Shown in pieces: positions 3,228 to 63,842 of a stretch of 64,000 nucleotides of DNA. The position numbers and the translations under genes were made by a program. This DNA is from Periplaneta americana (Eukaryota > Arthropoda > Insecta > Blattodea > Blattidae), in the NCBI RefSeq assembly GCF_040183065.1, contig NC_091127.1:19682891-19746890 (forward strand), in the 5' to 3' direction. Below the pieces are notes generated by a model. That model worked only from the letters and a program-made list of their open reading frames with translations, made no database searches and was not told the DNA's origin. Numbering within the stretch: the stretch's first letter is position 1; each line of letters starts with the position of its first letter.

Positions 3228-4130
3228 TCCCTTACTACTGACTTATCGGTGGAGGGGAGAGTATTTAAAATATGTAACTAATATAATCCTACCATTTGTC
3301 ATAGGCCCTATACATACGTAAGTGTTCTGTACTAATTGAAACCCAGTACCAAAATTTAAACACACGTTTATCTCATTTTAGTGAATTTCAATGCATGAAC
3401 ACTTCACAATTAACACGTATTTTCATTGGAAAGTATTTTTTTTTCTTTTAGAGAAACATAATCTGAATTTAAAATGTGATATAATTCTATGCACGAAATG
3501 GTCTAATTATATTTCAATTTTAGAGTATTCCTAAGACTTGTTTTGATATGTTTCTCGTCTCCAATATTGATTAATAGAACCAAACAGTCCCTTAGTTCTG
3601 CAGTTTCATCCAGGTAAACAAAATATGAATTCAATTACAATGCCAAGAGTTGATCAACACAAGCTTTTATGAAAATCACGTAAAAATTTTATATTTTATT
3701 CCTTACAAAGTAGGCATTGAGACTAGCCTATTAATGTGTTCCGGTTTTTTTCTAAAAATTTTTTGGGAAAAAAATGTAGTAGGCTTAAGCTATTGTAGAT
3801 ATGGTCCAACACCTTCGCAATAAGTCACTTCCACACGGTTCTATCCTATGATTGCCTCTTCCAGTATGTTGTTGTAACCTAGCCATACTTCTTTGATCAT
3901 GTTCAACAGCATAATGTAGGTCTATATCCATCTTACCTTGGTCGACGATATTCCGTATCTCACATGTCTTGTGATACATTTTTTTTATCATTGTACTCCT
4001 GTGAAATTCACCTCTTGCGTCTTAGTTTCGTATCATTCTGAGCTCTTCAAATAGGCCTATGGATAGTAAAGAAGAATTTCTAATGGCGTCTAGTTTATTT
4101 GCTTGTGTTATTTATTGTTGCTAATCATTT
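3228..4130. other. No gene seen
   Basis: AT-rich sequence with short runs of A and T. A 68-codon ORF on the minus strand (3785-3991) resembles nothing I recognise, and I do not call it. One TAGGCCTA octamer lies at 4052. Confidence 0.5.
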
Positions 4131-4322: not shown

Positions 4323-4806
4323 CAAATTGTCAAGCTGTTTTTATCATGGTCGGTGAAATCTGCTGTTAATTTTGGTGATTTTTTTACTTTGTTATTTAAC
4401 GAAACTGTATCAACTTCTGGGTTATTTAACGTCCATGGAATTTGTAATAGCGGAATGGTAATTGGCGAGATAAGTCCGAGAATTTGATACGAATTACCTA
4501 ACATTCTCCTACAATTGGGGAAAAACATCTTCTTCTTCTTTTTCATTCTTTCATTAGGCCTATAGGCTTATAACCTCTTCTGTCTTCAGTTCTCGTTGCT
4601 TTATCCCAAGTCGTCATACCATCGTTTTCTGTGTCGTCCCTGTCTTCGTCTAACTTTAGGAAGATTATGCTTACAATTTCAACAGTTGTGTTACTATCCA
4701 ACACCTTTGCTGCACGTGTCAATCCATCACCAGATTCAACGACACAAATATTTAAGCATAATTTGCAACTCGAACTTCAAGCATTGGATTTTAGCTTTAT
4801 CCTTGG

Positions 4807-13095: not shown

Positions 13096-13103
13096 TAGGC
13101 CTA

Positions 13104-14845: not shown

Positions 14846-15069
14846 GTGGAAAGATTCTGTGTTGAGTAAGTCATTAAAAGTGTACCCACTCCGTTTCTAA
14901 CTCGATATAAAATATTTTAATAAGTAGGCCTACTATTTTAGTCCTCTGCAGATGATGTGCTCCTAGGTAAAATGAAGAATAGCCTACATCAAGCACCTGT
15001 CCAGAATTATTATTATTGAGACAAAAGAGACTGGTTTAAAAATAATGCTTATGAATTTAAGTACCTATA

Positions 15070-18365: not shown

Positions 18366-19525
18366 GCTACTTACTTACTTACATACTTACTTACTGGCTT
18401 TTAAGGAACCCGGAGGTTCATTGCCGCCCTCACATAAGCTCGCCATTGGTCCCTATCCTGAGCAAGATTAATCCATTCTCTATCATCATATCCCACCTCC
18501 CTCAAATCCATTTTAATATTATCTTCCCATATACGTCTCGGCCTCCCTAAAGGTCTTTTTCCCTCCGACCTTCCCATATGCATTTCTGGATTCGCCCATA
18601 CGTGCTACATGCCCTGCCCAACTCAAACTTCTGGATTTAATGTTCCTAATTATGTCAGGTGAAGAATACAATGCGTGCAGTTCTGTGTTGTGTAACTTTC
18701 TCCATTCTCCTGTAACTTCATCCCTCTTAGCCCCAAATATTTTCCTAAGCACCTTATTCTCATATATCCTTAACCTAAGTTCCTCTCTCAAAGTGAGAGT
18801 CCAAGTTTCACAACCATAAAGAACAACCGGTAATATAACTGTTTTATAAATTCTAACTTTCACATTTTTTGACAGCAGACTAGATGTGAAAAGCTTCTCA
18901 ACCGAATGATAACAGGCATTTCCCATATTTATTCTGCGTTTAATTTCCTCCCGAGTGTCATTTATATTTGTTACTGTTGCTCCAAGATATTTGAATTTTT
19001 CCACCTCTTCGAAGGATAAATCTCCAATTTTTATAGCTCCATTTCGTACAATATTCTGGTCACGAGACATAATCATATACTTAGTCTTTTCGGGATTTAC
19101 TTCCAACCCTATTGTTTTACTTGCTTCAAGCAGAATTTCCGCGTTTTCCCTAATCGTTTGTGGATTTTCTCCTAACATATTCACGTCATCCGCATAGACA
19201 AGAAGCTGATGTAACCCGTTCAATTCCAAACCCTCTCTGTTATCCTGAACTTTCCTAATGGCATATTCTAGAGCGAAGTTAAAAAGTAAAGGTGATAGTG
19301 CATCTCCTTGCTTTAGCCCGCAGTGAATTGGAAAAGCATCAGATAGAAACTGGCCTATACGGACTCTGCTGTAAGTTTCACTAAGACACATTTTAATTAA
19401 TCGAACTAGTTTCTTGGGAATACCAAATTCAATAAGAATATTATATAAAACTTCTCTCTTAACCGAGTCATACGCCTTTTTGAAATCTATGAATAACTGA
19501 TGTACTGTACCCTTATACTCCCACA
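18366..19525 (-). mobile_element. LINE-A copy 4, longest open copy
   Basis: The minus strand at 18519-19526 is open for 335 codons. It contains reverse-transcriptase motifs in order: [11 protein letters not shown], then the fingers/palm [20 protein letters not shown], the catalytic [13 protein letters not shown], and the connection region [19 protein letters not shown]. The thumb side and the [13 protein letters not shown] block follow. A small deletion near 18570 shifts the frame before the GRPRRIWED tail. The endonuclease is absent (5' truncation at about 19525). The 3' tail is (TTAC)n seen from the plus strand. It is the least decayed LINE-A copy here. Confidence 0.9.
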
Positions 19526-21700: not shown

Positions 21701-21710
21701 GTAAGGTTTC

Positions 21711-21832
21711 GTAACAAGCTGTTTTTTTACGGTGATGGGTTGTTAGCCCTTCGTCCAACCCCCAAGCTGGAGGACTATCTCTTATCGGCTGTCCACGACT
21801 GCTTATTCAATATATTCGCAGCTACTCTCCTA
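21711..21832 (+). repeat. Fragment of a dispersed repeat (unclassified)
   Basis: The words TTACGGTGATGGGTTGTTAGC and CCAAGCTGGAGGACTATCTC resemble a repeat I associate with cockroach assemblies, probably part of a LINE. The identification is from memory. No other copy is in the window. Confidence 0.35.
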
Positions 21833-23715: not shown

Positions 23716-24040
23716 AAAACTTATGAATAATAATAACACAAAGTTACAAAAGCAATTAGATCTATATCTATTTTTGGCTAAAAAATTAGAATGGAAAGAA
23801 TAAATGAAATAGCTAGATTTGAATGAAAAACCCTTTTTGTTAAACAACCTATGTCTTTTAACGCGTCGTTTCGAAGTTATCGTTGAAAATGTTTTTGCGC
23901 GGTTGTACGTCAATGTATGCGAATGTGTGCATCCTTGTTTGTTTGTTGAGATGTTTGTAAGAGACGAGAAGAATTGTTGTTGTTTACGTTTAATGTTCAA
24001 TACCTTTTCCTTTCAGGTCAGTGTAACCATCAATTGAGAA

Positions 24041-25435: not shown

Positions 25436-25489
25436 CTCAATTGATGATTAGACTGCACTGAATGGAAAAGGTATTGAACATTAAACGTA

Positions 25490-25703
25490 GGGGAGAGTTG
25501 GGTAGTATCGCACATCGGGTAATATCGGACAGTGAGTTTCCTTCATCTACCACCAGATGATAGTACCTGAATGACATGGTTACGTTTCTGTGAAGTCGCA
25601 TACAGAAATGTAACCATGTTATTCAGGTACTACCATCTGGTGGTAGGTGAAAGAAACGCACTGTCCGATATTAACCGATGTCCGATACTACTCTACTCTC
25701 CCC
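25490..25703. mobile_element. GGGGAGAG foldback MITE, copy 1
   Basis: A 214-bp near-complete palindrome: GGGGAGAGTTGGGTAGTATC at the left and its complement at the right, flanked by TA on both sides (25488 and 25704). Each arm holds tandem words of the type GTAATATCGGACA. The closest empty site is in the window: ATTAAACGTAAACAAACAAC at 25750-25769 against ATTAAACG-TA-[MITE]-TA-AACAAACAAC here. That shows insertion at TA with duplication of TA. Confidence 0.9.
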
Positions 25704-26079
25704 TAAACAAACAACAACTAGACTGAACTGAAAGGAAAAGGTATTGAACATTAAACGTAAACAAACAACAACAGCCCTTCTCGTCTCTTACAAACATCTC
25801 AACAAACAAACAAACAGGGGTGTACACATTCGCATATATTGACATACGCCCGCGCAAAAACTTTTTCAACTGTAACTTCGAAACGACGACGCGTCAAAAG
25901 ACATAGGTTGTTTAACAAAAAGGTTCTTTATTGTTAGATCTCTCACCTCTCAGAATTTGTCGCAGAAGTTTTTGAATCACTCTGTATATTGAAAAGATTT
26001 AAATAAGTAATAATTAGACAAATATGTTTATACGCTTGTTTTTGTGTTATAGGTGTAGAATTATGCATGGAAGAAAGTA

Positions 26080-27165
26080 GGGGAGAAGTGGGTACAGTGA
26101 GACAGGGAGAACAGTGAGACATTTTTTATTAGATGGTAAATTTTGATGTTGAGATGTTGGTAACAGTGGAGTTGTATGTTGCATGAGTAAAATAACAGTA
26201 TTTGCATACTCGATTTGATTCAAGTTATAAAGGTGAGTGATGAAAAAATAATTCGTAATTTTTCACTCTAGAAGTAAAATTTTGGCTTGTGTTTAATGAA
26301 GGTTATATTGGATATACAAATGAGATGTAACTATGAATATTTTGTTACCTAATACGTACTATGGTATTTGAGATCATGTTTGGCAAATTTTCGTCTTTCT
26401 TGTTTTAATTTTGAAGTGATGGCGTCATTTTAAAATGAACTATGCGTAAAGGGAACAGTGAGACATGCCATTGAAGGGTACACTGAGACGTCTCACTGTT
26501 CCCATGTACCAATGATTTGCAACAACAAACTGTAATTATATTACATTTACCGGTAACTAACATTACAAATGAACATACTAGTAACCAATTTAGGAACTGT
26601 AGCTTAAAATAATGGATACATTACATTTTAATGGTTTCATAAATAAAAAATTATTAACAAAATTTAAGAAAATGTTAAAAAATAATAAAGAATTACATTA
26701 AATTCTTATAATCATAAGCTTTGTTGTCACCAAAAATTCATTTCATTTTTTCATAAAAGTTTAAAGTGTCATGGAAAATTCGCTTTTCCAAATGTTCCAG
26801 ATGTTTCAATGATTTCGAAGTCAGACATCAAAATGATTCTAAATAAGCCTACAGAACATGTCAAGATAAAGAGACAGCAAGTTTTTGTTTTCTTTTGAAA
26901 TAAATGTAAATCATTTCAATGTCCGTTAATAGACGCTGTGGTGTCTCACTGTACCCTCCTGAATGGGTACAGTGAGACATTTGCATTTTTTTGACAAACA
27001 CGTATTGTATATTATGTCCTTCATCTATTAACATTTTTGTTTATGTATTATTATACTCCATGTTTTAATATCTATTTCTATTGCACTTGATTTTAAAAAT
27101 ACTTCAATTATCACTTGCATACATATGTCTTAATATTTTGTGTCTCACTGTACCTACTACTCCCC
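26080..27165. mobile_element. 1.09-kb TIR element related to the GGGGAGAG MITEs
   Basis: The ends are GGGGAGAAGTGGGTACAGTG on the left and, complemented, GGGGAGTAGTAGGTACAGTG on the right, flanked by TA (26078, 27166). The motif CAGTGAGACA recurs inside in both orientations (around 26107, 26456, 26486, 26945 and 26970). This suggests several protein-binding sites or nested foldback arms. It is AT-rich with no transposase ORF. It shares the first eight or so bases and the GGGTA block with the shorter MITEs. Confidence 0.75.
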
Positions 27166-27167
27166 TA

Positions 27168-28200
27168 CAAAGTGTTGAAGTATGGAGAAATTGGAGGAAA
27201 ACCAGCCTCTCTTAATAATGAACAAATACATTGAAACTAAAACACCGGAGAAAAAAATTGCTATCAGATAAGTTAATGTAATTGTCAGACGATCATTTTT
27301 GTATAGGAGATCTGTCCAATGAACGCATTGTTCCCCCATTACATCCATCGCTCTTGGCTAGTTTTGAATCTCGAACTTCTGATTCCGTGACAGTATCCCA
27401 GTAATGACCACCAGACTTGATATTATTGCTGTTCAGGCTGAATTATTAATTCCTCCGATGAGGATTACATATTCGAAATTTTTCACTTCAAACGTTCGAC
27501 TAAACTTGAAGTATACGAGTAATACTGCAGAAGAAATTACGTTTCCCTAGAGACATTATTCCCATTGCAGACGAGATATCCATCTACCACCACTCAAACA
27601 ATAATTCTGTTCGGTTTCCCTTGTGATCCGATTTCTGCAATTCGTTATGTTTTCTGTGATTGTCACTTCCACAGAAACTAAAATATTTACAACTGAAAAA
27701 TTAAATTACGAACTTCATACAGATATTCCTGATTTATGTACGAGTATTAAAGGCAGCCTTGTCAAACGGACAGCAGAAAGCTTTCAAAGCTTTGTCGTAC
27801 TCATAACGTGGACTACATGTATTACAAGGACCACATAAAAGTTACATGGAAAGGCATCATGACCTTGTAGCATGTGGGCAGCATTTTGCGAAACCTCACC
27901 AGTTACCGGGATTTGTCCAGGCTTCAAGATCTAACGAGCATTTCCAACGTTAGGGGGTTGCCTGCCTTCGTGAGGTAGGCCTATATGTACTGCATGTAGG
28001 AAGCAGCTCAGCTGTTATCTGTAATATACAGCCCCTACCAAAAGTTTAAGGACACCCTACCATAAGAAATATTTCACTCCTGTGCTTATACTTATGTGAA
28101 ACTCCCTGATGTTTATACAGGGACAAAATGCCTGTCAAAAATGAAGTTTTTACTGCAAACACAATCTGTTTATCTTCCAAACAGCGGAGTATATATTGTA
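27168..28200. other. No gene seen
   Basis: No supported coding region. Near 28029 the words CAGCCCCTACCAAAAGTTTA and GGACACC resemble one tip of a Tc1-like element, but no opposite end is visible. TAGGCCTA occurs at 27976. Confidence 0.4.
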
Positions 28201-28201
28201 A

Positions 28202-28581
28202 AGGCTCATTCACAATGTGAAAATTAAACATAACCGTAACATAAACACAGAAGTTTGCGCCCAGGCTACCAAATGGGATCATTCACAATGATTCACATAA
28301 GCATTGACATAAGCATTACCGTAAGACGTTAACGTCAAAGTTTACAAACTCCAAACTTTCGTGCTTATGCTTAAGTGATTTGCAAACAGAACACAATCGT
28401 GGAGCGCTGAAGTATATGACAGAATATGAGGAAATGGCATCGTTGTTATTTTTCCATGGTTACGAAGTATGTTTGCTATTCTGTTTATGTTCCCATCGTG
28501 AATGATGGTATGACTTCTTGATTTTACTGTAACGTTAAGTTAACGCTTGCGTTATGTTTAATTTTCATTGTCAATGAGCCA
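28202..28581. mobile_element. MITE with GGCTCATT ends
   Basis: Inverted ends of about 35 bp: GGCTCATTCACAATG with GAAAATTAAACATAAC on the left, and GTTATGTTTAATTTTC with CAATGAGCC on the right. About 380 bp, no ORF. No clear target duplication. Confidence 0.65.
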
Positions 28582-29857: not shown

Positions 29858-30400
29858 ATTTATTTATTTATTTACTTATCTATTTTGCTAATAATTGTAA
29901 CATAAAATATAAATAAACAGAAAAACTTTAGCTAGCCCCTGAAAGCGTAGAACTCGTACTCAGGGGCGGATTCCTGAATTGAAATTAAGAAGTATATAAT
30001 ACAATTTGTCTTATGTCTACTGCGCAGTAAGAATATATAAATTTAAATTTACAATTTTTCAGTTTTTATAAAATCCATACATAACTTTTTAAATTTAATA
30101 CTAGAACTATTAGAATTGACAAGATTAGGGTATTTAAATATAAATTTGTTATATAGGCTATTCTTGGGCCTAAATTACTACTATGATTAAATATTGTAGC
30201 AGTGTTGCATTTTGATTCAAACAATCTTAAAGAATTCATACCTTTTGTTTCATAACTATGAGAATACAATTCAAAATTATTTCGATTTTTATGTATGCAT
30301 AAAATTAATTTATCTGATTTTAAGAACATAAAAGTCCAAAAACAATTTCTGAGATGGAAAATCAATAGGTTTATGAAGACATATTTTAATTATTTTGTTC
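29858..30400 (-). mobile_element. LINE-F 3' fragment, copy 1
   Basis: The minus strand at 30066-30365 encodes NRNNFELYSHSYETKGMNSL and IFNHSSNLGPRIAY, a C-terminal pattern shared with the fragment at 38724-38957. The 3'UTR word CGTAGAACTCGTACTCAGGG (about 29948) also has a counterpart at 38395. A (TTTA)n-like tail lies at 29858-29885. Confidence 0.6.
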
Positions 30401-34276: not shown

Positions 34277-35135
34277 TGCGATTTCTCTTCTAAACTACTG
34301 AATGATTGAATGGATCTTGTTCAAATTCAATGTATAAGAGTCGATATATTCTGGATTGAGGCAATGAAATGCAGACCTATAAATTATAAAACATTAATGA
34401 ATCTTTATCTGAAATTAAAAACATGTTTTGGCGCTACAGTCCAAAAGAAAGCCAAACAAATTTTTCGTGATAACTTTATAGGCCTATATAACTTACATAA
34501 GGTTTTTTCTAGGAAAAGAGGTATTGTATATGAACTCTATATTGATCACAAACGATGGGTAATTGTTCTATAAAACAGGCCTACTTACTGGACCTAAACT
34601 ATTGAATGGATTTTGTTCACATTCAATGTGTAAAAGTCAATTTGAAGGGTTCACAGTAGGCCAAGCGCCATTTATTAAAAATAGAGACAGCAAGAGTGAA
34701 AGTTAAGTGAATACCATAGTTTAATGAAGATTAACATATAATTTAGTTTTAATGTGTATACTTTATATTACTTGCTATATATTCCATTGAATTATGGTAA
34801 TAACTTAATTTTAATCCTTATTTTCTACGTCTTCGGTAAATGGCATTTGGCCCACTGTGGTTCTTTACCCTTCATTTATTCTGGATTGAGACACATGAAA
34901 CAAAAGACCTATAAATATTATAAAACATTAATGAATCTTTATCTGAAATCAAAAACATGTTTTGGCGCTACAGTTCAAAACAAAGCCAAACAATTTTTTC
35001 GTGATATAGGCTACTTTACAGGCCTATATACATAAGGTTTTTTCTAGGAAAAACATATTGTAGATCTATAGGAACTCTATATTGTCCACAAACGATGGGT
35101 AATTGTTCTATATAATAGGCCTACTTACAGATCTA
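34277..35135 (+). repeat. Imperfect direct duplication
   Basis: Two copies of a block with TAAAACATTAATGAATCTTT, ACATGTTTTGGCGCTACAGT and AAGGTTTTTTCTAGGAAAA lie at 34293-34585 and about 34595-35135. The second has an insertion of about 225 bp (34650-34876). Copy 2 also has GTGATATAGGCTACTTTAC where copy 1 has GTGATAACTTTAT. No coding function is supported; the ORFs at 34310 and 34754 span the duplication by chance. Confidence 0.7.
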
Positions 35136-36322: not shown

Positions 36323-36429
36323 TAAAATTATTACAGTATGCATATGGGCCTAGGCATTTCATGTAAATTTGTGGAAGTTAATTACATATAACTATTCAAA
36401 TAGTAGGCCTATAATGAATTTAAATGTAT

Positions 36430-36900: not shown

Positions 36901-37520
36901 ATGAGTGTAGTGCTGAAGGGTACTTGTGCAGGTATGAACATAGGCCTATCATAGTCGTGGGTTTTAGTTCGAACTTAGGGTTAAGATACAAATTAGATTT
37001 AGGCCTACTTTAAATGTTCTCTCTCACTTCAGTAACAGATACAAAATGAATATTAATACATGGGAAGTGAAAGGACTTCTTTTTAGCGCTAGGGGAACTT
37101 CATTTAAGTTAACCAAAACCATTCTCCTTTCTCTTAAATTTTCTAATGAGGACATTAACAAAATTTGTCTAATGGTAATGAGAGATTCATTATCCATTTT
37201 ACACAATCACTTCTATAATACTATGTAATTTTTTTTACTTCATTTCGTTACTCTTAAATGTATTTTCATCTGTTTCTCCGAAATCAAATTGTACTTTATT
37301 TTTAAATTTATCATTGTTCCGTATTCTCTCCGCAATCATATTGTATTTTTCATTTAACCTCTGCTTTGTATTCCGGATCCTAGAGGTCAGTCGTAGATTT
37401 CGGCCAGATGTCCCAAATTTTGGAATTTGTTGTGCGCATACGTACGATACATTTTCTAGCCATTTTCGATGATCCATAAGTGATCGTGTTTCATTTAATT
37501 TAGGATGCTCCTTGTTGTTG

Positions 37521-37571
<51 letters not shown>

Positions 37572-38319
37572 ATTATTATTTATTATTAGTAGTAGTATTA
37601 TTAATTTATTATTAATTGTATTATTTTATTAATTGTGTTTATTATTCATTGTCATTATTGAGTGTAATTAGTTACCACTGCCACCGAGTATTTATCCATT
37701 TTCAGTGTGAATATACAGACTACATACATAGACCTAAATAGTGTCTTTTACACGTAATTCAAAGAACGAAAGTTCATCCTCTTACCTGGGTGCATTTGTT
37801 ACTTATAGGCCTACTGCTAAAGTATGTGCTTCGTTCGTGACTTTTAAAGTCTTCCGTTAAACAATTCTGAGAGCGATCACTAGCAGTTACTGCTCACCAG
37901 AGATCTCGCGTGGTGGTCGGGAAGGGGAGAATGAAGAGCACATAAAACTGAGGGAATTTTACATAACTTGGCTGAAACTGTCAACTTCTATTGCCTGATA
38001 AATATACAAACAAGTTAACTGCACAAGTAACTGTCGTAGATCTGGCAACAGTGCGAGGAAAAGAACTGATGAGGACAAATGAAACCAAATATAGGCTACC
38101 AGTGGTCGTCAGCACTCACTGAAATGGGTAAAGGGTAAGCGGAGAAACGTGATATGCCCCGTCGTGCAGCAGGAAGAGGTAGAGAGCATACCCGCCAGCA
38201 GCCACGGATGCACCATAGTGCAGTCTCTTCTCCGCGGGTAAGAGAGGCTAGCCCGAGGGTGCAGTGTGCTGATGACCGCTGAAATATACTGTCTATTAAC
38301 CTCAATAGAGCATGACATG
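36901..38319. other. No gene seen; (ATT)n at about 37505-37566
   Basis: AT-rich sequence with a microsatellite. 38100-38290 is more GC-rich and carries overlapping minus-strand ORFs of 69 codons without recognisable motifs. An 80-codon minus-strand ORF at 37235-37477 is unidentified. TAGGCCTA occurs at 36941, 37010 and 37806. Confidence 0.4.
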
Positions 38320-40904: not shown

Positions 40905-41168
40905 AGAATAATTTTGCTGTTTGTTACAAACGCAGCATCTTATAGGCCTATGATGAAAGCAGGAGCGGAACTTAAAGTTATTTACCCAAAAATGATTCAT
41001 TTAACATGTTTGGCACATGGACTTCATATAATTTGTGAAGAAATACGTGTTCAGTACTCTAATGTAGGTATATTTATTTCGAACATGAAAAAAGTGTTCC
41101 TAAAACCACCATCTTCATGCAAGGCAATCAAAGAAATTGTACCTGTACACTTGGCTGGAAGGCGTTGA
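40905..41168 (+). pseudogene. hAT-type (DUF659-like) transposase fragment
   Basis: The plus-strand ORF contains LLFVTNAASYRPMMKAGAEL, then KVIYPKMIHLTCLAHGLHII and KKVFLKPPSSCKAIKEI. The D/N-AA..M...G...L....HLTCLAHGLH series is characteristic of the DUF659/hAT catalytic region, around the second acidic residue. The first position is Asn (TNAAS) where a catalytic Asp is usual in the family. It ends in a stop with neither N-terminal zinc finger nor C-terminal dimerisation region. It may be a sibling of the relic at 62985-63525. Confidence 0.65.
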
Positions 41169-41266
41169 TTACTATTGTGAATAACTTATTTTTCTGTTAG
41201 CCTATTGAAAAAGTGATGGAAACATTTCCTTCAGAGAGTAGGCTAGTGCAGCCGTAAAAGTAGTTA

Positions 41267-41480
41267 GGGAAGAGTTGGGTAGTATCGGACATCGGGTAAT
41301 ATCGGACAATGAGTTTCTTTCATCTACCTCCAGATAATAGTACCTGAAATACATGGTTACGTTTCTGTGATGTCGCATACAGAAACGTAACCATGTCATT
41401 CAGGTACTATCATCTGGTGGTAGATGAAAGAAACGCACTGTCCGATATTACCCGATGTCCGATACTACCCAATTCTCCCC
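41267..41480. mobile_element. GGGGAGAG foldback MITE, copy 2
   Basis: A 214-bp palindrome of the same family as 25490-25703, with ends GGGAAGAGTTGGGTAGTATC and its complement (one arm tip changed), flanked by TA on both sides (41265 and 41481). Confidence 0.88.
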
Positions 41481-41654
41481 TAAGGACTCCAAGGTAAGAT
41501 CAGGGAAGGTTTAGCATAGTCTATACTTACTTCAAATTTTAGAATGATTTTTTTCAAGTAGGTATCACTGAATTAGACACAATTGGCATGTTACTGACTC
41601 ATTCTCTTCAGATTATTGAAAAGTAGAGAAGAAAATGTCAGTGACGATTGGTCC

Positions 41655-41810: not shown

Positions 41811-42630
41811 TGCAAATTTAGAACTTCAGGACTTTTGAAAAAAAAATACCCCGGGTATAGAACACTGAAAGAAATTAGAGGAATTTTATGTGAAGACAGA
41901 TTAAGTTTATGTTCGTTAGAAAATAAAGATGAATAATAACGGCACAAGATGTAAGCAGCTTCTATAGACATGGAACGCGCTTTTTTCTAAACATAAAACC
42001 CTGCAGTTTTAGTATCAACAATATGAAGATGATTTTTGCTGTAGGCCTACGTTGCAATTCATGAAGAAGGCTATGTTCATACTTCTCCAAATTGTATTCA
42101 TATTGTTTGCAAATCTCAGTTGAGTTAATTTTGGTTTTTATCATTTATGATCGTGTCTGTATTATTGCAGTTCAACAAGAGTTGTTGCATATTTTAACAT
42201 TTTCATATAAATATTTCGTAATTTGATAGAGCATTAACTTCCGGGTCCTAGTTATAACTTAATAACTTCATTGGCAGCAGAAATTCTAAGTCCAAGATTG
42301 TAGCGCTAGCAGTTCTGTCATTGACGAATACTGCATAATGTTTTGCTTGTAACGTCGGTGATACTACTGCAATTGAAATTGATGTTTCTGTTGGATCTCC
42401 TTTGTATCAGATTATTCTCTGAAAGCGACCACAGTCTTCAGAAAGATTTTCTCGTGTTTAGGCCTACATGCTATTGGTAGCACCTAGTAGGCCTGCCACA
42501 CTATCCTGTCAGACGAAAAGTATTTCCGTCTATTAACTTATTTCTAGACTGACAGAAATAATTTCAATAGGCCTAACTGTTAGCAAATTTTAACCAAATC
42601 TAGTACAAATAGGCATAACTTATTCTACCG

Positions 42631-45289: not shown

Positions 45290-48200
45290 TGATATCTGGC
45301 GTAAAGTTTCTAACAAATCTAAATACAGAAGTGCTACCATTAATTACGCATAGAATGACTCGAATTTTGTGATGTGATATTTTTGGATAGTAGAACATAG
45401 TGTTGGAGGAAAATATTGTGGTACTCCTCTGGCATAAACTACTAATATTAATCAGATGCGATTTAAATGCGTAATTTTGTTCCTTCGTCACCTTGTTGTG
45501 GTAATTATGGTAGCTTAGTTAAAGATTCTCAGGGCAAGCTAGGCGTGACAATGACGGCAGTTGGCTTGTGGGCTTATGTGACGCAGAAGCATTTAGAGTT
45601 TCCTAGGGGACGGAGTCTTAGATAGCCTACCAAATCCTCAGTTTCAGAGAAGTATAGGTCCCTTGTGCTATACCATTTATTACCCATAGAATGACTCGAA
45701 TTTTGTGATGTGATATTTTTGGATAGTAGAACTTACTGTCGGAGGAAACTATTGTGACACCCCTCTGGCTCCAACTACTAATATCAATGAGATGCGATTT
45801 AAATGCGTAATTTGGTTCCTTCGTCACCTTGTTGTGGTAATTATGGTAGCTTAGTTAAAGATTCTCAGGGCAAGCTAGGCGTGACAATGACGGCAGTTGG
45901 CTTGTGGGCTTATGTGACGCAGAAGCATTTAGAGTTTCCTAGGGGACGGAGTCTTAGATAGCCTACCAAATCCTCAGTTTCAGAGAAGTATAGGTCCCTT
46001 GTGCTATACCATTTATTACCCATAGAATGACTCGAATTTTGTGATGTGATATTTTTGGATAGTAGAACTTAGTGTCGGAGGAAAATATTGTGACACCCCT
46101 CTGGCTCCAACTACTAATATCAATGAGATGCGATTTAAATGCGTAATTTGGTTCCTTCGTCACCTTGTTGTGGTAATTATGGTAGCTTAGTTAAAGATTC
46201 TCAGGGCAAGCTAGGCGTGACAATGACGGCAGTTGGCTTGTGGGCTTATGTGACGCAGAAGCATTTAGAGTTTCCTAGGGGACGGAGTCTTAGATAGCCT
46301 ACCAAATCCTCAGTTTCAGAGAAGTATAGGTCCCTTGTGCTATACCATTTATTACCCATAGAATGACTCGAATTTTGTGATGTGATATTTTTGGATAGTA
46401 GAACTTAGTGTCGGAGGAAAATATTGTGACACCCCTCTGGCTCCAACTACTAATATCAATGAGATGCGATTTAAATGCGTAATTTGGTTCCTTCGTCACC
46501 TTGTTGTGGTAATTATGGTAGCTTAGTTAAAGATTCTCAGGGCAAGCTAGGCGTGACAATGACGGCAGTTGGCCTGTGGGCTTATGTGACGCAGAAGCAT
46601 GTAGAGTTTCCTAGGGAACGGAGTCTTAGATACCAAATCCTTAGTTTCAGAGAAGTTTAGGTCTCTTGTGTCATACTATTTATTACCCATAGAATGACTC
46701 GAATTTTGTGATGTGATATTTTTGGATTCTAGAACCTAGTGTTTGAGGAAAATATTGTGACACCGTTCTGGCTCCAACTACTAATAGATGCGATTTGAAT
46801 GTGTAATTTGGTTCCTTCGTCACCTTGTTGTGGCAATTATGGTAGCTTAAAGATTCTCAGGGCAAGCTAGGCGTGACAATGACGGCAGTTGGCCTGTGGG
46901 CTTATGTGACGCAGAAGCATGTAGAGTTTCCTAGGGAACGGAGTCTTAGATACCAAATCCTTAGTTTCAGAGAAGTTTAGGTCTCTTGTGTTATACCATT
47001 TATTACCCATAGAATGACTCGAATTTTGTGATGTGATATTTTTGGATAGTAGAACCTAGTGTTGGAGGAAAATATTGTGACACCCCTCTGACATCAATTA
47101 CTAATATTAATCAGATGCGATTTAAATGCGTAATTTGGTGCCTTCGTCACCTTGTTAATATAATTATGGTAGCTTAATGATTCTCAGGGGAAGCTAGGAG
47201 TGACAATGACGGCAGTTAGACTGGGCTCATGTGACGCAGAAGCATGTAGAGTTTCCTAGGAGACGGAGTCTTAGATACCAAATCCTCAGTTTCAGAGCAA
47301 ATGTAGGTCTCTTGTGTTATACCACTTATTACCCATAGAATGACTCTAATTTTGTGTTGCGATATTTTTGGATTCTAGAACCTAGTGTTTGAGGAAAATA
47401 TTGTGACACCGTTCTGGCTCCAACTACTAATAGATGCGATTTGAATGCGTAATTTGGTTCCTTCGTCACCTTGTTAAGGTAATTATGGTAGGTTAATGAT
47501 TCTCAGGGCAAGCTAGACGTGACAATGACGGCAGTTAGCCTGTGGGCTTATGTGACGCAGAAGCATGTAGAGTTTCCTAGGAGACGGAGTCGTAGTTACC
47601 AAATCCTCAGTTTCAGAGAAGTGTAGGTCTCTTCTGCTACCATTTATTACCCATAGAATGTCTCGAATTTTGTGATGTGATATTTTTGGATAGTAGAACC
47701 TAATGTTGGAGGAAAAATATTGTGACACGCCTCTGGCTCCAACTAATATTAATCAGATGCGATTTAAACGCGTAGGCTAATTTGGATCCTTCGTCACCAT
47801 GTTAAGGTAATTATGGTAGCTTAGTTAAAGAGTCTCGGGGCAAGCTACGCGTGACAATGCCGGCAGTTGGCCTGTGGGCTTACGTGACGCAGAAGCATGT
47901 AGAGTTTCCTAGGAGACGGAGTCTTAGATACCAAATCCTCAGTTTCAGAGAAGTTTAGGTCTCTTGTGTTATACCATTTATTACCCATAGAATGACTCGA
48001 ATTTTGTGATATATTTTTGGATAGTAGAACCTAGTGTTGGAGGAAAATATTGCGACACTCCTCTGGCATAAACTACTAATATTAATCAGATGCGATTTAA
48101 ATGCGTAATTTGGTTCCTTCGTCACTTTGTTAAGGTAATTATAGTAGCTTAGTTAAAAATTCTTAGGGCAAGCTAGGCGTGACAATGACGGCAGTTGGCC

Positions 48201-48400: not shown

Positions 48401-49060
48401 CTTAAATTCGTAAATTTTGAAGTTACGAGTTGGCGTTCGATTTCATTGTGATCTAGTACAGCTACATTTCAGAGCGGTGCTATTGAGTTTGAAGGAACCA
48501 CCTCTTTTCTCTGACCCTACACGCACCTGTTAATTCTTTCCTATCAACTTGGCAGATTCCCTGGCCGGCTGGCACAGCTCCTCAATGTCTTTTCTGCTTT
48601 GTATGGGGGTGGAGTGAGTAGGCCGTGGATTCGGTCGTCGCTCGTCATTTGTGCGGTGCTTGAATTTCTGTAACTAATCAGAAATTACGACTGAGTAGGG
48701 GGACGGAACGGACTGCTGCTTGTGTGGGATTCTTAATTCCATCAGCGCACGTCGGGTCGGGGTTGTAATTCGAAGCATCGAAACAAAAACCGCGGAGTTA
48801 ATTGTGCGTGCAACGCGTGGTCGGGTTCGGTTCCAGGCTGCGATCAAGCGGCTCGTGTTACGCCCTCGATAAATTGAGAATTTGCTATTGAAAGAAAGCA
48901 TTATCACGCTGAATGTAACACTGATTGTAGCCTGAGCCTGTAATGTGTGATTTGTTGTGAGTGCTGGCTCTACAAGTAGAGAGTTCCTACTTTCGTGTCA
49001 AATTCATTGTAGGCCTAATATTGCTTTTGAACTTGCTCTTGTTTACATCTGTTTGATTTG
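48401..49060. other. Unique intronic sequence between arrays
   Basis: Higher GC than the arrays and single copy in the window. A 77-codon minus-strand ORF (48674-48907) is unrecognised. It is one of the better places to look for an intronic enhancer, but no specific motif cluster is claimed. Confidence 0.35.
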
Positions 49061-52600: not shown

Positions 52601-53251
52601 GTTTATTAGAATAAAATATAGGCCTATGTAACTCTCGTTGCTATGGACACCAGAATCAAGTTTTATTTGATCGTCCTTTGTTGTAGAATTCAGCACCAAG
52701 TTGTGTGTAGTCACTATGTTGCGCGTTATAAAAGGAGCAGCGGCTTTCAGTGGATAAAAAATAACGTCCAAGGTTGGATGTACCTTCATCACGAGGTGAA
52801 GGGAAACCTGCTGAGAGCGCTGTTACCTGCAGCTCTCCCGAGGAGACGCAGGATTCCGCAGATCTGTTTCGAGGTTCTGAAGCTGCCACGGTCGCTGAGA
52901 GGCGTAATTGCCTCAGTGATACGTTCAATTACGCGAATCTGACGCAGTTGTCTGCGTGAAGAGGTCCCGTCTCTCTTGATCATCGTGAAAGGGCTGTAAA
53001 CCCTAAACCCCCTTGTTCTATCTGGATTCCTGTACCCTAGTTGGGATTTTTCATTTTCATTGTACCCCCCCCTTTCGTGCTGTAGTAGCCTAATTAGAAT
53101 AGGGAGGAACTAAGGCTGGATTCCCATCACGAAGGTTTGAATATTAGTTTCTTGAGAGAAGTAAAACTCTTTGAGTTCAGTACGTTATACAGAAGTACAA
53201 TAATCTGTTAAAGTTGTAGCACGTCTGATTAATAGGCTACTTGGGACGCAA
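52601..53251. other. Unique sequence with TATA and Inr-like motifs
   Basis: TATAAAAG at 52727 and TCAGTG at 52747 are separated by about 22 bp. They are followed by a GC-richer block with overlapping short ORFs in several frames (52643-52983). The spacing is short for a canonical TATA/Inr pair. No protein similarity is recognised. A small nested gene, or a repeat with its own promoter, is possible; I do not call a gene. Confidence 0.3.
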
Positions 53252-54219
53252 TCTATAGTACTAATAAATCTGTAGCCAAAATTTTTCTGGTAATTTTCGA
53301 TTTTCCAAAAATAATTGGTATTAACATGTATAATTAACCATCCTGAAACCGAAAATCGCTTTTTTGAAATTTTTGTTTGTATGTCTGTATGTTTGTTACC
53401 TTTTCACGCGATAATGGCTGAACCGATTTGTATAAAAATTGGAATATAAATTAAGTTCGTTGTAACTTAGATTTTAGGCTATATGGCATTCAAAATACTT
53501 TATTTAAAAGGGGGGTTATAAGAGGGCCTGAATTAAATCGAAATATCTCGCTTATTACTGATTTTCATGAAAAATATTACATAACAAAAGTTTCTTTGAA
53601 AATAATTTCCAATAAGTTTTATTCTATACAAAGTTTTGAGAGGACTGATATTTAATGAGATAAATGAGTTTTAAAATTACAATAACAACGCCATCTAAGG
53701 CGCTGTACTGAAATAAAAACAAATGATTTCGTCTATAAGGGGCCTTGGACAACAACAATCGAAAGCTATTTAAACATAGCCGAAGAGAATGTTTCTGTGT
53801 TTGTATGAAGTAATATCGGAAGCTAATTGTTTAATTATTATTTCACCATTGGAAAGTGTAGGTTCTCTAGATGGACATAATGCTATAATGTTATTACAGT
53901 AACTTCTGAAACATATAGCAAGTAATATAAAGTATACACATTAAAACTAAATGAAATGTCAATCTTCATTAAACTATGGTTGCATGTAATAACAATTAAG
54001 AAACATGTTAAAGGAATTGTCATTGCACCTAATTATTTCTCTCTGGGCCAAAATGACCGCATTTTAATTATTTAAATACAATTTAAATTAAGTAACATAT
54101 TAAACGATTTATCCTTCTATCAAACACGAATGTTCCCTGGATCAAACGTCCTGTTTTAATTATGTAATTACTTTATATTTATTTCTAACAGGTGCAGCGG
54201 AGCGCACGGGTACGGCTAG
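53252..54219 (+). mobile_element. Non-autonomous Helitron, 968 bp
   Basis: The 5' end is A/TCTATAGTACTAATAAATC and the 3' end is a short GC hairpin (GTGCAGCGGAGCGCAC), a spacer, and CTAG/T. Insertion lies between A and T. These are the textbook Helitron features: 5' TC, 3' CTRR, 3' hairpin, no target duplication. No Rep/helicase ORF is present. Confidence 0.8.
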
Positions 54220-54445
54220 TACAGTAATAGCGAACAGGGTGAAGTAGGCCTAACTACAGAGAAATGATCCCAGACACAATTAGATAAAACTTCACTTGCA
54301 AGTTTTCAGATAACACGTAAAGTGAATAATTAGTGATTTTTGTTGATAATTTTCATTTTCACATGTCATTGCTTATTTTATGGCGTGAAGAACGTTGGGT
54401 TTTACAAAACCGTTTGTAAACAATTAATAACGTAGACGGTGCCAG

Positions 54446-56127
54446 ATTTAGGTATAGTGCCGCCCCTAGGCAGTGATAAAATTTGCCGCCCCCCAACTCT
54501 CGCAAACAGTTTATGAGCAGCTGTTACACAGGTCATGTTTAGTTTAAATTAGTTTTAAATGAGATGTTACAATTCAGAAAATTACTGGAATCAAAATACA
54601 TGCATCTTACTTGTAGACTAAATTATAAAGATTTCCTTCGCACTTTCTTCACAGAGTAAGCATTGATGATGTCATCAAAGTCGATCTGATGAGCCACATC
54701 AGATTAGATGCAAAGAAATATAGGTCCTATTCAAACTTACTCATTATTGAAACAAAATTGAGTCCTTTGTGAAAGGCAAGCTGTGGTTTATTTTTAAGTA
54801 TTGGTTTTGTTGGTGGTATAATATTATTTCGAGTATTTCTTACTTCGATACGAACTATAAAGTAAATTGAAATAGTAATATCCGTTACAAGAGCGGTATG
54901 TTGATGTTTTCATGTTCGAGGAAAAGATTGAAAAAGCGAAACGTAGTTGAGCTTTTTTAATTTCCGAGAACATGAAAACAAACATACCGCTCGTATATCG
55001 TGCATTATTTTGTGCGAAGATCGTTTATTACATACCTGAAAGAAGAATTTCTAATTAGTTGCAATGAAATATCCATCTTGGTTTCTGTTCAATGACGGCA
55101 ATTTTGGAAAACAAAAATATCTCTCTTCAACATTGTTGCTATAAAATGTTTTCTGTGTTTACTATACACCAGCAGGCCGTGATACACGTCTGTCTTTTTT
55201 TCCCCCAATCTATAAATGGGAACTTAAAACAAACGGTAAGGTTATGTAATGATTTATTTTTCATTTTAATATTTTAACAATATTATTTATATAACATATT
55301 GCAGTAATAACATCGGCATCTGGAATCTTGTTACTTTTTTTCACGGCTTCCTTAATGTTACTTGCATTACAAATGCAGTAACTTTTGTGGTGTTGTAGAG
55401 TTTACTTAATTTTTGCAAATATTTAAAAACAATAATTAACAGTGCAATTTAGGTGAAATTGCAGTGGTAAGTTTCCAATTTATAATTATTACTATGTTAA
55501 ACGTCTCTAAAAATAATACGTTAAAAGCCTAAAGCAGTAAAATGAATGTCGCGCTTAAGCAGTAAGAAGAGGGAAATTGTTATGTGTGTTACACTGGGAA
55601 TACTGAATGTGGTATTTCACACACTATTTCGCACGATCTCGCACAAAATAAACTCCAACTCTTTGCGGAATAAACCTTTCATATCGAAGTATACCGAAAG
55701 TTTGATTAAATAGTATTGTTGACAATATATTATATTGGAAATGTAACTGAAAGCTGTGGTTAGTATTCATAGCGATAATATAATCAACACACATCCAATT
55801 TTATTTTCAACAATGCATTCTTGTTTATACAAGCAGTTAAATTTAAACACTTTCATAGCATATTAATGTGATACCAGCATTACAATATAGGCCTAACTAT
55901 GCAGCTGCACACTTTCCTTTTACTCTCGCCACGACCACGACATGACAAAACAATATTCGACTTCCACTAGGTGTTCAAGAACAAGCTTCAGAAAAGATTT
56001 ACTAACAAGTGTTTAAAAACCAAATTTCACTGTAAAATGAAAATGTAAAAAAAGAAAAAGGAACACAAAGAGAGAGAGAAAATGTCGCCCCCGCAACTGC
56101 CTAGGTTGCCTAGGCCTAAATCCGGCA
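54446..56127. mobile_element. hAT-like element with repeat-X nested inside
   Basis: The ends are imperfect inverted repeats, CGGTGCCAGATTTAGG on the left and CAGTGCCGGATTTAGG in the complement of the right, resembling hAT tips. AACGTA lies next to both ends, which suggests an imperfect 8-bp target duplication. Inside are repeat-X copy 2 and AT-rich filler. No transposase was found. Confidence 0.55.
54882..55650 (+). repeat. Repeat-X copy 2, with about 110-bp insertion
   Basis: The second copy of the 51886-52600 repeat, same orientation. The 5' hairpin is more regular here (arms about 54887-54918 and 54972-55001). An insertion lies at about 55213-55320 relative to copy 1. Confidence 0.75.
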
Positions 56128-56131
56128 CTGA

Positions 56132-57300
56132 AACGTACACTCATACATCTGAGATAATGTGTCATCCAAATAATAGGCCTATTTATTTGAAGCAGAGATT
56201 TAATTTATTCTGTAGACTGTTCAGGAAGACAAAGCAAAGTTTTATCAGATTATGATTATAAAAATAGTTTTATCTCTGGAAACTTGTATTAGACTTTATC
56301 CTATTATGAATATAAGAACAAAAGTTTTAGGAAAATATAAACTATTTCAACACCTTTCGAATTATACAAAGCAGGGATGTTAAAGCGCCTGCACTGTATG
56401 TTGCCAAGAACCCGCACAACATTTCCTTAAGAGCGATGATTGTACTTCATTTTGCTAAAAAGTGAAGCTTGTTGGATTTGTATTGCTTGTAGCATGAGCA
56501 TGTAATAGAGGCGCTTTGACATCCCTGGATAAAGAGTTGTTCCGTACAGTCTGAATTCCTTCCAGAAGATTAAAGTAAAATTAAAAGAAAATGCTTCGCT
56601 AGTAAATGTAAAGAAATCGACAAGAACCCCTGTGACAATAAGATATGTTTCAGTTGAAAGTAGTACCTACATGTAACACACAATTAAAATATTTAAAATA
56701 TCTTTTCACAGAATTGATTATGAAAGCATTTCATCACTATCAAATCAGCATTAAACTCGGACTGTGCTTGAAGCACGTTACTGTCATTGCTATAGGCCTG
56801 TACTTAATTAAAACTAATTCCAGTTCTTCCACAAGGTGACACTTTTTGGGATTTTTAAGGCTGCTAAAATTTAAGAAGACACGAGCAATTTAAATTTCTC
56901 TGATATTTGAAAAAATCTTATATGACATCAAATTCATTTCAAAGTATGGTTTCTTCAACTGTAAATTGTTTATCTTACATAAATGAGGGGGCATCCTGTG
57001 TTAGGATGGCGTTTTTCAGTTCTTGCATGCATTGCTGTGTACTTATTGTCTACCTAAGATGAGTCGCGAGTTCGACTCTCGCGTCGAGGAGGTTCGCTCA
57101 ATCGCTTGCTCATTACCGGCGTAGAACCGGGAAACGAACTTCAGGTCTCGGAGTCAGCTCGCAGGAAGTCTGTTGGCAGCAACGCAGAAAATTTGCGTAA
57201 TTCAGAGATGACATTCCTATTCACAAGCGCATGATATTTCAACTCACGTTTCTCTGAACTTACCTGTTGCAAGCGCAGCCGTTGAAATCCAACAATTATT
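56132..57300. other. No gene seen; possible SINE fragment near 57065
   Basis: AT-rich. GAGTTCGACTCTCGC at about 57068 looks like a B-box but no A-box is clear. A 64-codon ORF (56645) is unrecognised. Confidence 0.4.
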
Positions 57301-58860: not shown

Positions 58861-59012
58861 AAAAATTTTACACAAATTGTATTCTATTGGGACTTCCAAT
58901 TCGCGGAAGTGATAGACAGATACTGGCAGAATCATTGGGCTAAGTTTTATTTTAAATGAAAAACTAAGATAATATTACTGCTTCGATCGTTAATATAGCA
59001 GGAGCAAGTATA

Positions 59013-59227
59013 GGGGAGAGTCGGGTAGTATCGGACATCGAGTAGTATCGGACAGTGCGTTTCTTTCATCTACCACCATATGGTAGTACCTGAATGACAT
59101 GGTTACGTTTCTCTATGCGACATCACAGAAACGTAACCATGTCAATCAGATACTATCATCGTGTGGTAGATGAAAGAAACTCACTGTCCGATATTAACCC
59201 GATGCCCGATACTACCCGACTCTCCCC
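59013..59227. mobile_element. GGGGAGAG foldback MITE, copy 3
   Basis: A 215-bp palindrome with ends GGGGAGAGTCGGGTAGTATC and its complement, flanked by TA (59011 and 59228). Its arm sequence differs from copies 1 and 2 by scattered substitutions, some compensated on the other arm. Confidence 0.9.
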
Positions 59228-59229
59228 TA

Positions 59230-62234: not shown

Positions 62235-63842
62235 GGGGAGGCAGAGGTGAAATTTTGAACAAAACTGAAGAAAAAATGAAAATTTGTTTTTTTATTATCT
62301 TTATACACTAAATTTTGATATTCCGATGTTAGTTTCTTATTTTGTGCCCTTTAAAAGTATGAAATTAAAACCAAGATAACTGTATTACTATATTATTCCC
62401 ATAATAAACTAATACTTATTATTTATATACCTTCTCTGAACATAAGCTTATAAATAAAAAGAAATATTGAAAATTTCTTACAATATGGTGCATGGAGCAT
62501 TTTATATCAAACGATATAAAGTTTTATACAATTATTAATATTTACAGAACTATTGTACTTAGAAAGTTGAAACTTGGTATGTCCATTACCAATAACTAGA
62601 CTTCGTGGAATTGCCACGAGATTCGCAAGGTTTACTGTGCACGCAGTATAGACTGTATGAGAAGGGGTCGTGTCTCTGATGTAAATACTGAGGAGTATAC
62701 TGCGGTTACAATAAAACATGTATCCTGCATTCAAGAAATATAATGAATGATCATTGAAGTAGGAAATGTCTAAACATGTAAATATACAATTATTTTATAG
62801 TTGGATATATTAGTCTAACTCTTAAAATTTAATGTAAGATATATCATCCTTGAATATGTGCATTGCAGTGAAGAGTTACGTACATTTTGACCGACTGCAA
62901 AGTAAGCTCCTCCGATGGTCACTTAAACAGTTTGTATATTAGGAACTTGTAGTTCAACATCACACGATGTAATACGTGCATTTCTTAAGAACGGGAAGTC
63001 ACTACTTTTAGTAGGCCTACACCAACTTCAGACGTCTTGTCGTGATCTGATAGTACATAATTTATAATACGAAGTTGTGAATAGGCAGAATTTTTAGCAA
63101 TAATGTTTCTCAACTTACATTTCACTTTTTCTGAAATTAGTGAATTGTTATTTTGGATAACGGTTTGTGATACTTTATCCACTATATTAAGGGCTTCTGA
63201 GAGTTGTAGTTTAGACGATTCTAACAGGATGATGCTTTTGGACACGATTTTAAAATTAGAATCAATGACAGAATATCTTTCAATAGCTGTTCAGAAAGCA
63301 ATGATTTTACAGCTGCAACAGCGCGGAACTGTCTGTGCTATCCAATGTATGAATTACCTCCATTATTTTTCCGTAATGTTCAGCATAATAATTAACAGAA
63401 TTCAACCACGTTCCCCAACGGGTCAAGAATGGCTGCGGGGGTAAGGGTATTCCAGGAGTAATTGTTTGGAACAGCAACACTCTCATTGTAGTATGTTTGA
63501 TTGAATTCTTGTCTGCACTGAACAAATGTTAAACTTTGACTATTCCAACCACAATAATGCAAAAACAAGTGCTTACATAGGTATACATTAGCTGCAGCTG
63601 ATCTATCTATTTGGACCGGTCACAACTCTTAACATGAACTGCTTATACTACGAGACCGGGCGGTCGCTCACCTCCTCTATACTACCGTACATCGGCAACC
63701 TGATTGCATGCTGCGTGTGGCAATTCAACGAAGTCTACTAATAACATACTTAGTATCCATGATCCATACTTAGTATCCATGATCAATTTCAAACAAATCG
63801 GATAAATTTTGTGGATTTTTAAATATTCACCTCTGCCTCCCC
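62235..63842 (-). mobile_element. TTAA-flanked element, 1.6 kb, with DUF659/hAT relic
   Basis: The ends are perfect inverted repeats GGGGAGGCAGAGGTGAA (left 62235, right complement ending 63842), each preceded or followed by TTAA (62231-62234, 63843-63846). TTAA duplication is typical of piggyBac and Kolobok elements, whereas the coding relic inside looks hAT-like. Either the ends belong to a non-autonomous element that captured a hAT fragment, or the superfamily is unusual. Confidence 0.65.
62985..63525 (-). pseudogene. DUF659/hAT-type transposase fragment
   Basis: The minus strand at 63307-63525 encodes TPGIPLPPQPFLTRWGTWLN and SVNYYAEHYGKIMEVI; the PPxP..TRWGTW block is typical of DUF659/hAT proteins. 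After a frame change at about 63290-63245, 62985-63245 continues with SKSIILLESSKLQLSEALNI and KVKCKLRNIIAKN. In its family this segment directly follows the HLTCLAHGLH region, which is the part preserved at 40905-41168. No zinc finger or C-terminal dimerisation region is present. Confidence 0.65.

Follow-up and report, generated by a model that had tools for sequence, protein, structure and literature searches.

Short words at TA dinucleotides of the Periplaneta americana genome as probable excision scars of Tc1/mariner-type transposons

A 64,000-nucleotide stretch of the Periplaneta americana genome (NC_091127.1; G000:C11:19682891-19746890, hereafter the window) contained dispersed copies of the palindromic octamer TAGGCCTA together with the heptamer TAGGCTA and its reverse complement, TAGCCTA. 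These words are very probably excision scars of Tc1/mariner-type DNA transposons, a reading to which we assign a probability of about 0.88. The main evidence came from insertion alleles at two single TA sites of a long interspersed nuclear element (LINE) and from short insertions at TA between other repeat copies. The original prediction, which had proposed such scars, was right in its observation and well supported in the idea of excision, whereas the miniature inverted-repeat transposable element (MITE) that it named as the main source was not supported.

Insertion alleles at two TA sites of a LINE

The window contained copies of a LINE, with a reverse transcriptase domain (RVT_1) in two of the seven frames scanned. 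Two 20-base words of this LINE, each spanning one TA, occurred eight times apiece in 20 sampled stretches, which extrapolated to ~130,000 copies genome-wide. The genome (3,231,669,367 bases in 91 contigs) was searched for the left and right 20-base-word flanks around TA with 3-24 bases between them, and the reversed flank pattern served as the control in the same genome. The empty form of each site was present in the window, as listed below; here and in later lists a strand is given where one was assigned.

18658..18677, + strand: LINE copy with test site 2 empty (GGTGAAGAATA, CAATGCGTG), by flank-word match
18917..18936, + strand: LINE copy with test site 1 empty (CATTTCCCATA, TTTATTCTG), by flank-word match

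Site 2 gave 184 insertion alleles and its reversed control none. Among the first 100 of these, 83 had the form TA-(2-4 nt)-TA, many of them as reverse-complement pairs. The commonest were TAGGCCTA (9), TAGGCTA (8), TAGCCTA (8), TACAGTA (6), TACATA (6), TACTGTA (5), and TACGTA (5), followed by TACTCGTA, TAGGTA, and TAGCTA (4 each) and TACCGTA and TAGGTCTA (3 each). TAGTCTA, TATGTA, TAACTTA, TACCTA, TAAATA, and TACGAGTA occurred twice each, TAGACTA once, and five others as singles. The other 17 included local tandem duplications, such as TGAAGAATA (4), and the two TAAATA alleles could be duplications as well. The TACAGTA/TACTGTA (CAG) class has the canonical Sleeping Beauty form, and TACATA/TATGTA (the CA class) that of Tc1 excision footprints.

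Site 1 gave 251 insertion alleles, again with none in the control. The first 100 comprised TAGGCTA (10), TAGGCCTA (8), TACCGGTA (4), TAGCCTA (3), and two each of TAGACTA, TAGTCTA, TAGACCTA, TAGCTA, and TACTTA, with singles including TACGAGTA (1); many of the remainder consisted of A+T only, such as TATTA (8). TACAGTA, TACTGTA, TACATA, and TATGTA were absent from these 100 alleles. A separate search for alleles beginning with GG at site 1 gave 114. Among the 100 listed, 65 had the LINE on both sides (TAGGCTA 32, TAGGCCTA 26, others 7) and the other 35 did not. The reversed GG pattern occurred 39 times, roughly the number of matches to be expected by chance.

Words and their reverse complements thus occurred at one and the same TA (e.g. 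TACAGTA 6 and TACTGTA 5; TACTCGTA 4 and TACGAGTA 2), as in excision footprints. Such a spectrum argues for scars because repair after Tc1/mariner-type excision predicts it, and the insertions at TA found genome-wide upheld the proposal that the dispersed octamers and heptamers arose by excision. The ratio of TAGGCTA to TAGCCTA was 8:8 at site 2 and 18:11 for both sites pooled. The heptamer had been proposed to be TAGGCCTA after loss of one base; this step was not needed, since the 8:8 and the 10:3 of site 1 are compatible with a primary joining product.

Insertions between repeat copies and abundance of the words

The scars were first noticed in a 336-bp array. The sequence GATAGCCTACC lay at 45621, 45957, and 46293 of the window (heptamers at 45623, 45959, and 46295). 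The array site of 45623 was located in nine units, three with TAGCCTA, five with GATACC, and one with GTTACC. A second site had GCGTAGGCTAATTTGG at 47770 (heptamer at 47773) in one of eight units and G(C/T)GTAATTTGG, which keeps TA, in the remaining seven. Both differences were a net +5 bp and changed TA to TA-GGC-TA on one strand, in agreement with the 5-bp insertions described by the original prediction. We infer that the TAGCCTA triple was one event spread through homogenisation of the array. A case at 35007, described as similar, held in part: the copy GTGATATAGGCTAC did differ from its paralogue GTGATAAC at 34467, by a net +6 with TAGGCT after GATA and not by a clean change of TA to TA-x-TA, so its status as a scar is unclear.

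45623..45629: TAGCCTA scar in an array unit, 6 of 9 units being without it (repeat-copy alignment)
45959..45965: TAGCCTA scar at the array site of 45623, probably spread by array homogenisation (unit comparison)
46295..46301: TAGCCTA scar at the array site of 45623 (unit comparison)
47773..47779: TAGGCTA scar in one array unit, with TA in 7 of 8 units (unit comparison)
35007..35013: TAGGCTA, longer by a net 6 bp than the paralogue at 34467 and unclear as a scar (paralogue alignment)

Repeats were aligned all against all within 288 kb (the window, 20 stretches of 10 kb, and 8 of 3 kb), which gave 2,512 alignments. Fourteen heptamers outside the arrays had an aligned copy. Four of these copies read TA (those of 30154 in the window and of L009:5889, L020:8139, and L021:4680 in sampled loci); one further heptamer was the 6-bp case of 35007, and four were shared as two pairs. 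The pair 30154 and L009:5889 was reciprocal, each copy having an insertion where its partner reads TA. The octamer at 36941 was opposed to TA in three alignments and that at 37000 in two; octamers in L007 and L008 gave weak TA cases, and one octamer was common to L005 and L018. In addition, the LINE copy in L010 had TAGGCCCTA where the aligned LINE copies have TA. Short insertions at TA with plain TA as the empty form, as in Tc1/mariner footprints, were therefore found both between copies and at the LINE sites. An artefact of somatic excision is unlikely, as scars were common to copies (L005 and L018; 53475 and L013:192; the array triple).

30154..30160: TAGGCTA scar; the L009 paralogue reads TA at this point, and TAGCCTA at L009:5889 is in turn aligned with TA in the window (copy alignment)
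36941..36948: TAGGCCTA scar, with TA in 3 paralogue alignments (repeat-copy alignment)
37000..37007: TAGGCCTA scar, with TA in 2 paralogue alignments (repeat-copy alignment)
53475..53481: TAGGCTA, shared with the paralogue L013:192 (repeat-copy alignment)

Among all 59 sites of 5-bp insertion between copies, arrays included, the TAGGC class accounted for six (four with the array triple counted once), and the only larger class was the microsatellite-like AATAT (11). When the window arrays and simple repeats were removed, TAG(G/C)CTA remained at 3 of 50 5-bp sites and TAGGCCTA at 2 of 28 6-bp sites. Seven more 6-bp sites, whose cores consisted of G and C only (TACCGGTA, TAGCGGTA, TACCCGTA), were closely spaced in L014 and probably belong to one tandem array.

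The words were also abundant. The octamer occurred 22 times in the window, 45 times its dinucleotide expectation in the 48.7 kb outside masked repeats. In a 246-kb sample (the masked window and 20 stretches of 10 kb set at round positions), it was the top 8-mer outside simple repeats, with 48 copies against 1.9-2.2 expected, and TAGGCTA occurred 39 times against 17 expected. The G+C content was 34.9% in 200 kb sampled from the genome. Genome-wide, TAGGCCTA occurred 457,526 times, the reversed word 16,914 times, and Markov models of order 3 to 1 gave an expectation of 21,066-28,337. The 24 one-base neighbours of the octamer summed to 122 against 106-122 expected on both strands. With one counted per complementary pair, transition neighbours numbered 32 (17-21 expected) and transversion neighbours 29 (36-40 expected). 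No date was drawn from these counts, since TAGACCTA also occurs as an insertion allele at each of the two LINE sites. The sequences flanking 145 octamers looked varied; beside the TA, G was more frequent and C less frequent, and no relation was apparent between the two sides. A cluster of 38 octamers lay within 78 kb at C1:742000-820000 of the same genome (4.9 per 10 kb, against an average of 1.4).

No paper about the octamer was found among Creative Commons-licensed papers, whose titles were covered in part. A retrotransposon primer of the German cockroach includes TAGGCCTA (PMC7650587), and the word may occur in that cockroach too. The following copies were located in the window by word count, except where another comparison is given.

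4052..4059: TAGGCCTA octamer, no paralogue found for comparison
4555..4562: TAGGCCTA octamer
13096..13103: TAGGCCTA octamer
14925..14932: TAGGCCTA octamer
27976..27983: TAGGCCTA octamer
34479..34486: TAGGCCTA octamer; the copy near 35020 has CAGGCCTA, a substitution (copy comparison)
35116..35123: TAGGCCTA octamer; CAGGCCTA in the paralogue, a substitution (repeat-copy alignment)
36404..36411: TAGGCCTA octamer
37806..37813: TAGGCCTA octamer
40943..40950: TAGGCCTA octamer
42042..42049: TAGGCCTA octamer
42459..42466: TAGGCCTA octamer
42568..42575: TAGGCCTA octamer
49010..49017: TAGGCCTA octamer
52619..52626: TAGGCCTA octamer
54245..54252: TAGGCCTA octamer
55888..55895: TAGGCCTA octamer
56111..56118: TAGGCCTA octamer
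56174..56181: TAGGCCTA octamer
63012..63019: TAGGCCTA octamer

Proposed mechanism, source elements, and rival explanations

A Tc1/mariner-type element would enter at TA and duplicate it. On excision, the transposase would cut a few nucleotides inside the 5' ends and leave short 3' overhangs of terminal bases on both flanks, and end joining would close them, so that plain TA becomes TA-(2-5 nt)-TA. With ends in GGC, a three-base overlap with a mismatch in the middle would give TAGGCTA or TAGCCTA, perfect pairing of two bases (GC) would give TAGGCCTA, a one-base overlap TAGG(G/C)CCTA, and zero overlap TAGGCGCCTA. The transposases of Sleeping Beauty and mariner nick the DNA three nucleotides within the element, so that 3-nt 3' overhangs remain, and end joining then gives scars identical to these overhangs (PMC7827188). 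The longer products were counted as well. TAGG(G/C)CCTA occurred at 18 sites in ~2.84 Mb against 8-10 expected and TAGG(A/T)CCTA at 12 against 9-15, in a hand count from which 29 rows belonging to a single tandem array on C1 were dropped. Over the first 32 Mb of that contig, TAGGCGCCTA occurred at 21 sites (~8 expected), TAGGGCCCTA at 3 (~9 expected), and TAGGGGCCTA at 26 (18-21 expected), 9 of the 26 lying in two tight clusters. The 10-mer counts point to GGC rather than GGG ends. A source that ends in 5'-GGC and leaves 3-nt overhangs is given slightly better than even odds for the main scar class, and no more because the flank argument against GGGGAG ends covers one family only.

The competing source is a set of GGGGAG-ended elements, the hairpin MITE GGGGAGAG or elements related to it, under a 2-nt staggered cut. 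Zero overlap of GG overhangs would give TAGGCCTA, and a single mismatched base TAGGCTA or TAGCCTA. Such elements are abundant and TA-flanked, the hairpin family having 5,826 + 5,783 = 11,609 exact ends genome-wide, and the terminal GGGGAG was common to several TA-flanked families, including those at L012:2599-3496 and L019:7209-8110. The base before TA was G at 20 of 100 hairpin MITE ends (of the 11,609) and at 106 of 290 octamer flanks, and C stood at -2 in 28 of 100 and ~35 of 290, respectively, so the hairpin family is unlike the octamers. The sample contained 17 TAGGGGAG sites, nine of them with G before TA, and in the non-hairpin subset the share was 8 of 12, a preference that the octamers also have. 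The TA pairs of the L012, L019, and 26078 elements were preceded by G and followed by C in every case (6 of 6 ends). The 6-mers of GG overhangs were present at LINE site 2 (TAGGTA 4, TACCTA 2, TAGCTA 4), and the excess of TAGG(G/C)CCTA suits GG overhangs equally.

25488..25705: GGGGAGAG hairpin MITE with TA pair, the proposed source, not supported (end and repeat comparison)
59011..59229: GGGGAGAG hairpin MITE with TA pair (end and repeat comparison)
41265..41482: GGG(A/G)AG hairpin MITE with TA pair, GGGAAG at one end (end comparison)
26078..27167: GGGGAG-ended TA-flanked element of another family, a possible source (end comparison)

Under a 2-nt stagger as in Tc1, products of the TAGGTA/TACCTA type would be common. 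TAGGTA was not enriched in the 246-kb sample, and TAGGTA and TACCTA made up 6 of 100 alleles at LINE site 2 against 25 of 100 for the TAGGCTA/TAGCCTA/TAGGCCTA class. The analogous no-overlap product of the CA class, TACATGTA, was likewise not enriched in 246 kb. The 3-nt stagger products of GGGGAG ends were not in excess either (TAGGGTA 21 against 19.7 expected in 246 kb; TAGGGCCCTA as above), and the 10-mer counts ran the wrong way for GGG, with TAGGGCCCTA low, TAGGCGCCTA high, and the small surplus of TAGGGGCCTA partly clustered. On its flanks and the 10-mer counts, the hairpin MITE was rejected as the main source that it had been proposed to be. An origin of the main class from GGGGAG-ended elements as a whole is unlikely but deserves weight, and its odds overlap those of the best explanation.

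Two explanations dispense with transposons. HIP1 is an iterated octamer of cyanobacteria, and a selected or protein-binding palindrome of that kind would suit the enormous copy number of TAGGCCTA and its sharpness, with the one-base neighbours near expectation. It predicts neither the insertions at TA by which the octamer arises in copies nor the heptamers and unrelated TA-x-TA words that accompany it at the same LINE site, and we consider it hardly credible. A repair or polymerase process that inserts a few G/C-rich nucleotides where TA is broken, unrelated to any transposon, would work without a source element, and for the main class no such element was found in ~323 kb. This process is very improbable, as the alleles fell into fixed words, with their reverse complements, around several cores, one of which matches the ends of a mariner found in the genome.

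That mariner belongs to PF01359, for which there were 19,038 first-look candidates of any kind; of the 150 scored, four had a stop inside the match and 34, counted by eye, had a frame of exactly 387 codons. Ten loci were examined (L029-L038). TA-flanked end pairs near CGAGGGGGATCC were found in L033, L034, L036, and L038, and L035 begins TACGAGGGGG and aligns with L037 over 1,331 bp. The first four bases of the ends TA-CGAGGGGG and their complement correspond to the site 2 alleles TACGAGTA (2) and TACTCGTA (4), and TACGAGTA occurred 13 times against 5.8 expected in 246 kb. Terminal bases of a known element thus matched the TACGAGTA/TACTCGTA class and not the GGC class. The family of L033-L038 (on C15, C9, C6, C7, C14, and C11) has ends near CGAGGGGGATCCAGGAAATAACGA and many open 387-codon frames, which suggest that it was recently active. 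The assembly report for PAMFEO1_priV1 gives 3.23 Gb, a count of 91, an N50 of 188.1 Mb, and 35.5% G+C; DNA elements make up 24.3% of the genome, chiefly Tc1-Mariner and hAT, with greater abundance at a 5% Kimura level (PMC12774602).

Several points weigh against the excision reading or its GGC-ended source. All comparisons were between repeat copies inside one assembly, and a scar in a LINE copy that amplified later is counted repeatedly, so that copies are not fully independent. Five of the 14 non-array heptamers differed from their copy by substitution or in an unclear alignment; the octamers 35116, L003:1501, and L013:2852 differed from the paralogue by substitution, and L004:1501, L012:6056, and L020:7327 aligned unclearly. 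TAGGCTA and TAGCCTA were uneven at site 1 (10:3, p = 0.09), the 9- and 10-mer counts were small, and the mariner scar core of 4 nt falls outside a plain 3-nt rule. A scan of ~323 kb for end pairs showed no GGC-ended element; it required the first three bases exactly and at most 2 mismatches in 12 at 25-6,000 bp apart and would miss longer or poorer terminal repeats. No filled site was seen at LINE site 1 among the 11 inspected of the 35 listed non-LINE GG rows. The abundant transposase families examined ended in CGAG (L033, L034, L036, L038), CAG (L052, L053), and CAC (L056).

Candidates for the GGC source were tried and rejected. In each of six GGC end pairs in the ~323 kb, at least one end involved an octamer, and all six were attributed to chance. 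The filled-site candidate of L040 and L050 had the LINE on the left and then GGCAACATTTGCCTA, with no terminal repeat and no right LINE part within 4 kb. At L050:236-320 (C13:162290835), the LINE was broken exactly at test TA 1 by GGCAACATTTGCCTA, followed by unrelated sequence, as might result from an imperfect scar or from a rearrangement. Ten PF01359 loci and nine PF13358 loci (L051-L059), of 150 scored each, were examined as transposase sources; GGC ends were found in no locus with ends, and L029-L032 and L051 were without clear ends. CAG was also one end of the 352-codon family, a Tc1-like element of >3.7 kb (L054, L055, L057-L063) with 352-codon open frames and copies 98-99% identical; its right end reads ...CAGGGTAACTG before TA, and its left end was not reached. 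By the rule of three there would be fewer than ~30,000 GGC-ended elements against ~430,000 excess octamers, in a sample that is not strictly random. If GGC is correct, scars outnumber source elements more than tenfold. Our tentative suggestion, held at rather less than even odds, is that most of the ~430,000 excess octamers and of the heptamers came from a GGC-ended TA transposon that moved often and hardly stayed, and that its scar word thereby came to lead the octamers of the 3.2-Gb genome, simple repeats aside.

Relation to known systems and other features of the window

Tc1 footprints have the words TACATA and TATGTA, both of which occurred at LINE site 2 (6 and 2 of 100); here they form a minor class and were not among the site 1 alleles listed. 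Most known excision scars of DNA transposons are individual cases or come from assays. The Sleeping Beauty and mariner footprints also arise at a TA target, from terminal bases left as short 3' overhangs and sealed by end joining, with scars identical to the overhangs (PMC7827188). The record here is natural and genome-wide, and no element could be matched to the GGC core of its main class. Stowaway MITE footprints in Triticeae genes are likewise natural scars, with a few terminal bases between TA duplications and several per site (PMC1925063). They were reported from single plant introns, whereas the scar word here outranked every other octamer of the 246 kb except simple repeats. Insertions and excisions were also counted genome-wide in a survey of DNA transposons in two rices, which gives a Mariner ratio of 2.6-2.8 insertions to 1 excision (PMC4423477). 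Insertions exceed excisions there, whereas scars would exceed a GGC-ended source more than tenfold here, which would be unusual by that ratio. The kind of scar is known; its scale, the spectrum at single LINE sites, and the missing source appear new to us.

The scars are apparently abundant enough for one scar word to lead the octamers of a genome sample, and in a high-copy repeat their spectrum can be read through a simple pattern count. If this reading is true, the ratio of departures to residents, the cut geometry of a family, and the joining rules of the host would be measurable from one assembly, and the LINE copies would form a natural assay for scars of every TA transposon active since the LINE spread. 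For motif finders, the caution is that a palindrome in sharp excess may be a scar rather than a binding site.

Three other features were noted. A TA-flanked 202-bp element at L014:396-597 has matching ends CCGTCATTTCCCAT and could have given rise to the TACCGGTA and TACCGTA alleles of the LINE sites. The GACTTCG-ended element at 62597-63737 of the window, with ends GACTTCGTGGAATTGCC, was considered as a control for GAC scars and rejected, since the empty site in L021 suggested a target duplication of ~10 bp (TACYAATAAC); this suggests an element more like the Mutator type. Finally, a 54-bp array at 6806-12394 comprised 103.5 copies with 98% matches and was open for >1,850 codons in one frame per strand, with an inverted arm near 6745-6797.

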